This document shows positions 46,980-47,119 of a stretch of DNA of 47,119 nucleotides, piece by piece. Positions within the stretch are counted from its first letter, which is position 1. Every line of letters starts with the position of its first letter. The DNA comes from Oscillospiraceae bacterium. GTDB taxonomy: Bacteria; Bacillota; Clostridia; Oscillospirales; Acutalibacteraceae. The notes beneath the pieces were generated by a model. It saw only the letters and a list, made by a program, of their open reading frames with translations. It did not search any database and was not told the origin of the DNA. Both the position numbers and the translations under genes were made by a program. The DNA lies in assembly GCA_015066385.1 (NCBI GenBank), contig SVOJ01000022.1, positions 1 through 47,119 of the forward strand. The letters are read 5' to 3'.

Positions 46980-47119
46980 TTACCAGCGATAACGAACGAC
47001 TACACAGTAGGGGCCGTAGTGATAATGGGTGTAGCGCACGGGAGGACGGCGATGACGATAGTAAAAGTGGCCGCCGGCGACGTTGTCAAGATCTTCTTCG
47101 TTGAGCTGATCGTTTTCCT
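46980..47119 (-). CDS. Partial double-glycine leader peptide (RiPP/bacteriocin-like precursor), C-terminal end
   Basis: The stop TAA is at 46980-46982 and the frame is open to the window edge; at least 45 codons are visible and the start is outside. The leader end reads DQLNEEDLDNVAGG, the classical double-glycine cleavage motif of Nif11-type and bacteriocin leaders (acidic, Leu at -12/-7 and Val at -4). The 29 residues after GG begin HFYYRHRRPP and are rich in Tyr, His and Arg, with a single Cys and a Trp as last residue. It would be cut and exported by a peptidase-containing ABC transporter, which is not in this window. Modification enzymes, if any, must lie to the right. A structural false match is possible, as it is short and incomplete. 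Confidence 0.6.
   Translation of the reverse strand, partial: ENDQLNEEDLDNVAGGHFYYRHRRPPVRYTHYHYGPYCVVVRYRW

Follow-up and report, generated by a model that had tools for sequence, protein, structure and literature searches.

Dispersed Nif11-like precursor genes of an Oscillospiraceae bacterium share an ECF-like promoter motif that may link them to a sigma factor-encoding NHLP exporter operon

The stretch of DNA analysed here (the window) was 47,119 nucleotides long and represented the entire contig C37 of an Oscillospiraceae genome (G000) which, like all of the assemblies analysed, was a draft. The right end of the window was found to carry the 3′ part of a Nif11-like GG-leader precursor gene on the minus strand (46,980 bp–47,119 bp); the peptide frame was truncated by the contig end and closed with a stop codon at 46,982 bp–46,980 bp. 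Translation of the minus strand between 47,117 bp and 46,983 bp revealed the final 16 residues of the leader, ENDQLNEEDLDNVAGG (47,070 bp–47,117 bp), with a double-glycine motif at their end, followed by a 29-residue core, HFYYRHRRPPVRYTHYHYGPYCVVVRYRW (46,983 bp–47,069 bp). This core contained seven Tyr, one Trp and one Phe (the split was counted by eye), four His, one Cys and one Thr, and its K+R−D−E charge was +6. A sequence-only reading had described a minus-strand GG-leader frame running off the right edge and a 29-residue core with nine Tyr/Trp-type aromatics and one Cys; the frame was present, spanning 47,117 bp–46,980 bp including the stop codon, and the counts agreed. As the identical core was encoded at two other places in the genome, on C15 and on C33 (21,253 bp–21,567 bp), and the fragment matched a profile built from four complete copies (E 1.4e-23), it does not represent a chance frame. 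The alternative of a chance frame, or of part of a long ordinary protein, was ruled out by the complete copies, which were 106–110 residues long.

A terminator-like hairpin of 16 pairs with a loop of 3 (46,933 bp–46,967 bp) was located between the peptide gene and the convergent gene of a dockerin-like protein. It was also present in the C33a and C15 copies; one hairpin was found in this region, compared to a mean of 0.6 in shuffled sequences. By eye, 40,116 bp–46,825 bp of the window encoded two large secreted proteins, both with leucine-rich-like repeats and, at the C terminus, dockerin-like repeats, and 32,603 bp–39,368 bp encoded mnmG, rsmG, two ParB-like genes, a ParA gene and serS, a block that looked origin-proximal.

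The DNA at the right end of the window was repeated at several places in the 3.17-Mb genome. Searching the genome with the precursor profile gave nine matches on eight contigs: five complete genes (on C51, C50 and C10 and two on C33), two 3′ halves at the ends of C37 and C15 and two 5′ halves at the ends of C3 and C52. The genome carries at least seven precursor genes, which are scattered; the breaks in the assembly fall within near-identical copies. The region shared among the copies extended from just before a −35-like block to shortly past the stop codon and, in the C33a/C15/C37 subtype, through the terminator. This shared stretch was approximately 430–500 bp, and the flanks beyond it did not align (approximately 700 bp on each side were compared where present). 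Neighbourhoods were inspected by eye for up to approximately 10 kb per side, and on one side only at the four half copies; no peptidase-containing exporter or maturase was recognised beside the copies within this range. The C10 copy had, approximately 3–9 kb upstream, the genes of a two-component system, an ABC ATPase and a large permease (L035, 155 bp–6055 bp; by eye, a response regulator, a histidine kinase, an ABC ATPase and a 923-residue permease), which is possibly an immunity-type or peptide-sensing pump. The C33a and C51 copies adjoined what looked by eye like metal-stress genes.

The complete copies were compared with the Nif11-derived peptide leader profile TIGR03798, a search which the sequence-only reading had proposed; the window fragment is linked to these scores through its match to the profile of the copies. 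Of four complete copies, all of which matched, one (C33a, 33.4 bits) scored over the curated cut-off of 32.3 bits and the other three scored below it (24.9–27.9 bits, E 2e-6 to 2e-5). When all six frames of the genome were scanned with TIGR03798, four copies were returned, one of them over the cut-off, along with one poor match; at this loose E-value the model also matched in 11 of the 14 control genomes, in each case below the cut-off. The Pfam Nif11 model matched the complete copies weakly and under its cut-off. The leader ended in an acidic ...LD.V.GG ahead of a short C-terminal core, as in Nif11-type precursors. Together with the NHLP exporter encoded by this genome, the TIGR03798 matches bear out the proposal of a GG-leader precursor of the Nif11/NHLP kind.

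Five distinct cores, four from this genome and one from genome G016, had a K+R−D−E charge of +6 to +8 and contained 3–6 His, 5–10 aromatics, 1–6 Cys and 0–3 Ser/Thr. Several Ser/Thr and Cys residues, as expected of a lanthipeptide core, were absent from the window core with its single Thr and single Cys, in agreement with the earlier view that it has too few Cys for that class. A search of the core against the PDB gave a single non-significant match (E 0.29). An antibacterial activity of the cationic peptide seems most likely. The chief alternative, metal binding, is possible, given the run of His in the G016 C77 core, which starts CYHHHHHHHRH, and the metal-stress-like neighbours of C33a and C51.

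Analysis of the regions upstream of the copies revealed a motif, TGTAACA-N14-GTGTATACA, at six of seven readable starts, five of them exact and one with one mismatch; it was absent upstream of the C50 copy. In six copies TGTAACAC...GTGTATAC started 87–98 bp upstream of the ATG. A TGTAAC block set at a constant distance from a TGTATA-like one corresponds to the architecture of ECF promoters. The motif was searched for with its spacer fixed at 14 bases and no more than two mismatches, using the reversed motif as a control. With two mismatches allowed there were 12 sites in the genome (control 1), six in G016 (control 2) and three in genome G007 (control 2); with one mismatch allowed the genome had eight sites and the reversed control none. 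Its six exact sites comprised those of five precursor genes and one approximately 320 bp before the own site of the sixth precursor. The two sites with one mismatch were that of the sixth precursor and a spot just behind the last ABC gene of an export operon on C11; G016 has a precursor at the equivalent place. The four sites with two mismatches lay before or within other genes. In G007 all three sites preceded Nif11 genes, one of which was a divergent gene (TIGR03798, 36.4 bits) that the precursor profile had not reported and that was found by the motif-only search. Two of the G016 sites preceded precursors, three preceded other genes (by eye, those of a secreted protein, a Ser/Thr kinase and an NfeD-like protein) and one was inside a gene. 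Among the 20 sites before peptide genes, out of 29 listed, columns outside the searched letters were also conserved (C8 in 16/20, T10 in 17/20, A30 in 19/20 and G36 in 17/20), while the spacer was mostly free.

A short GC hairpin was noted at the presumed 5′-end, in the first 30 or so nucleotides after the motif, at about half of the sites. Its stems varied yet paired (GGC/GCC, GGTG/CACC, AGCG/CGCT and GTAGA/TCTAC). Of the 29 sites, 21 were folded, the exclusions being C51 and C52 (near other own copies) and six sites without a precursor gene; the z score against shuffled sequences was below −1.5 in 11 of the 21, and the hairpin was absent in others.

Comparison of the C50 copy with the four other complete copies gave dN/dS ratios of 0.05–0.10 for the core and 0.08–0.11 for the leader, at dS values of 0.8–1.9 that are near saturation and exceed 1 in the core. 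The other pairs within the genome were closer and their ratios were higher and noisier, up to 0.78 for the core on 2 synonymous changes. The core is under purifying selection among the paralogues. This conservation is limited to the one genome because, against the G016 copy, the core changed more (dN 0.42–0.49) than the leader (dN 0.28–0.38). Selection bears on the reading of the copies as a repeat, selfish or decaying, that has no cellular role. A repeat would fit a shared stretch made up of just promoter, gene and terminator, the two promoter sites without a peptide gene and the spread over eight contigs. It is very improbable, however, as purifying selection acts on both leader and core among the paralogues, the frames of all five complete copies are intact, nothing else that could be recognised is encoded by the shared stretch and no relatives were found in viral contigs (600 stretches matched the pattern, 0 were confirmed) or plasmids. 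A mobile element was rejected on the extent of the copies, from promoter to stop codon or terminator, on their flanks, which did not align over the approximately 700 bp compared per side, and on this lack of viral-contig and plasmid relatives. The precursor-profile search of the genome contigs collection gave 394 stretches that matched the pattern, with 0 confirmed.

The export operon on C11 (232,425 bp–238,514 bp) opened with the gene of an ECF sigma factor, followed by those of an HlyD-like protein, of an ABC transporter with a C39 peptidase domain and of a further ABC transporter; FHA, STAS and TIR-FHA proteins were encoded downstream. The exporter proteins all scored over the cut-offs of the NHLP profiles TIGR03794 (164.9 bits, cut-off 156.2), TIGR03796 (1010.2 bits, cut-off 853.3) and TIGR03797 (789.9 bits, cut-off 709.4). 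The 174-amino-acid product of the first gene contained sigma-70 regions 2 and 4 (PF04542 and PF04545/PF08281) and matched TIGR02937 at 116.1 bits (cut-off 42.9). No anti-sigma gene was recognised by eye. The NHLP transporter had 42 ABC matches in this genome, of which only that of the C11 operon extended over the C39 part, and C18, H91 and D107 of this domain, which we take to be the catalytic triad, were invariant across three species. The nearest solved relative of the C39 domain was the LahT protease domain (6mpz, E 1.5e-52), and LahT has been described to remove Nif11-type leaders at the double Gly motif (PMC6363468). This match likewise supports the presumed cleavage of the leader by a C39 transporter.

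No precursor match was found beside the C11 operon, where there was only the motif site after the last ABC gene; a precursor did adjoin the exporter in G016 and G007. The sequence-only reading had counted the lack of a transporter or maturase within about 20 kb, together with a lack of leader homologues in related genomes, as evidence against itself. The exporter is indeed on another contig, and leader homologues exist. A 20-kb limit is misleading here because the exporter is remote, yet leader homologues, the shared promoter and co-occurrence tie the precursors to it.

Co-occurrence was analysed in 26 genomes of the genus, 12 of which, including two of the three positives below, were ≥90% complete and ≤5% contaminated. 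Precursor, exporter, orthologous sigma factor and several motif sites were found in the same three of the 26. TIGR03796 was matched over its cut-off in three genomes, and a sigma factor with 48–54% identity to that on C11 was found in two besides its own, the next best match having 31%. With one mismatch allowed, the three positive genomes had eight, five and two motif sites and the reversed control had none in all 26; the three may be close kin. Across 59 genomes the precursor profile matched in five, and the two of these outside the genus were weak leader matches.

The association was followed across NHLP exporter loci, using the best 80 of 513 confirmed loci, which are not independent of each other. 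The sigma factor was encoded within 2.5 kb upstream at 20 of these 80. The motif, with up to two mismatches, was present at 12 of the 20 sigma-bearing loci and at three of the 60 sigma-less ones (Fisher p 7e-7), and the association was retained among the best 80 (9/17 vs 3/60, p 2e-5) when the G016 and G007 loci and L168, which is from the same genome as L138, were removed. The sigma-bearing loci had 18 sites in 351 kb (control 0) compared to three in 1.08 Mb (control 3) for the remainder of the best 80. At 10 of the 20 sigma-bearing loci, among which L168 repeats L138, the motif directly preceded small genes with GG- or AA-type leaders and diverse cores. At two of the 12 motif-bearing loci (L149 and L172) it preceded no small leader gene, and eight of the 20 sigma-bearing loci in the best 80 lacked the motif, some of these being shortened by contig ends. 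Among the sigma-less matches, that of L163 was antisense inside a gene, and those of L152 and L154 preceded small peptide genes; the exporter of L152 is cut by the start of its contig, and at L154 a sigma-like match lies far downstream. L140, which has a more distant sigma factor, had by eye a variant of the motif with one extra spacer base. A C-terminal Trp, often as RW or RRW, was observed in many GG-leader peptides, those of the own copies and of L140, L141, L143, L149 and L151; those of L135, L136, L156 and L166 were without it.

Recognition of the promoter by the operon's sigma factor is suggested by this co-occurrence and by the promoter layout. The motif might instead be read by another factor, either a dimeric regulator of GTGTATACAC, which is a palindrome and would suit one, or another ECF sigma factor, with the operon's sigma factor having other targets. 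Four further sigma homologues are encoded by the genome at E ≤ 1e-10, some motif sites precede unrelated genes, and no good copy of the motif was seen by eye before the sigma operon, so that auto-regulation was not seen. The motif nevertheless has the layout of an ECF promoter and tracks the NHLP-operon sigma factor both in the genus, where 22 of the 23 sigma-less genomes also lacked it at up to one mismatch (G021 had one site), and across the best 80 of the 513 NHLP loci. We consider another factor an unlikely reader.

We consider it probable that the exporter-encoded ECF sigma factor drives dispersed promoter-precursor cassettes and that the C39 exporter cuts and exports a cationic peptide; precursors and exporter are linked by the shared promoter, the leader homologues and the co-occurrence. 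Each cassette would consist of the promoter and a Nif11-like GG-leader precursor gene, with a terminator in one subtype. The ECF sigma factor of the C11 operon would direct RNA polymerase to TGTAACA-N14-GTGTATACA, so that the precursors would be produced together with the exporter. The C39 domain would then cleave after GG, and the exported product would be a 29–33-residue cationic Tyr/His/Arg-rich peptide with a C-terminal Trp.

Whether the core is also modified by an enzyme encoded elsewhere, through radical-SAM crosslinks on Tyr, His or Arg or through Cys chemistry, bears on the nature of this product. The core is rich in aromatics, N11P leaders have been described alongside modification enzymes (PMC2887384), and in G007 the NHLP exporter and a series of Nif11 genes flank a radical SAM gene (L043, 7041 bp–8030 bp). 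A homolog of this enzyme was, however, absent from the own genome and G016 (E ≤ 1e-8), an MbnB-type iron enzyme (PF05114) was absent from the three genomes, these two being the queries of the maturase homology search, and inspection by eye of the surroundings of the copies and of the export operon revealed no maturase. Modification is a real possibility, if somewhat less likely than not.

The pairing of Nif11-derived peptides (N11P, TIGR03798) with NHLP exporters (TIGR03794, TIGR03796 and TIGR03797) was described by Haft et al. 2010 (PMC2887384), and the leader family, GG site, exporter trio and paralogous expansion are the same here. As described there, N11P/NHLP systems form clusters with TOMM or lanthionine enzymes and have hypervariable cores, and neither "sigma" nor "promoter" occurs in the main text of that paper (PMC2887384). 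In contrast, among the paralogues found here the core hardly varies, the exporter operon is headed by an ECF sigma factor and a maturase was not found. The precursors of prochlorosins are scattered genome-wide and their cores differ from one another. Prochlorosins are modified by ProcM, whereas the cores here are alike and have few Ser/Thr. The lantibiotics of actinomycetes are under ECF sigma control by MibX/PspX, which, like MbnI, act within their cluster. Unlike these, the sigma factor here belongs to the exporter operon and would act on dispersed targets. The prochlorosins of marine picocyanobacteria resemble the present system in having Nif11-type precursors that are served by one machinery, also in trans (PMC10783134), and MbnI of methanobactin operons does so as an ECF sigma factor encoded with a peptide pathway (PMC3621798). 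The lah cluster of Lachnospiraceae C6A11, the source of LahT, has its LahA precursors in a single cluster with diverse cores, unlike the scattered copies here (PMC6363468). No description of a sigma-NHLP/Nif11 wiring was found in searches of the open PMC literature.

On balance we lean towards a wider reading, in which a family of systems in gut Clostridia uses the exporter operon's own ECF sigma factor to command precursor genes anywhere in the genome through one promoter, TGTAACA-N14-GTGTATACA, with a hairpin at the 5′-end in many cases. In the present genome the local precursor would have been lost, with its promoter left behind the exporter, and replaced by dispersed cassettes with a near-constant core, which would form a dosage array of one cationic peptide and not a combinatorial library. 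Peptide mining usually searches near a transporter or maturase, neither of which was found beside the precursors here; it is the promoter pattern that links them to the presumed exporter. Because it found a Nif11 gene unreported by the precursor profile, the motif offers a direct route to precursors in many gut Clostridia, perhaps to partner genes as well, and it opens the control of NHLP systems to testing.

Two further features of the NHLP loci were observed. At L150 (14,835 bp), L152 (4716 bp), L154 (3369 bp) and L156 (14,763 bp) the motif was followed by peptides of 66–74 residues, the leader-like part of which ended in ELSEEEL..VSAA forms and not in GG; these are perhaps a further peptide class of the same regulon. 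Additionally, sigma-bearing loci often continued into STAS, TIR(-FHA), PP2C phosphatase and Ser/Thr kinase genes, as at L062 (4236 bp–7649 bp), L135 (15,533 bp–19,919 bp) and L150 (15,068 bp–17,461 bp). STAS was found at 11 of 21 sigma-bearing and 17 of 60 sigma-less loci and TIR at eight of 21 and two of 60 respectively; these genes would appear to be a signalling set.
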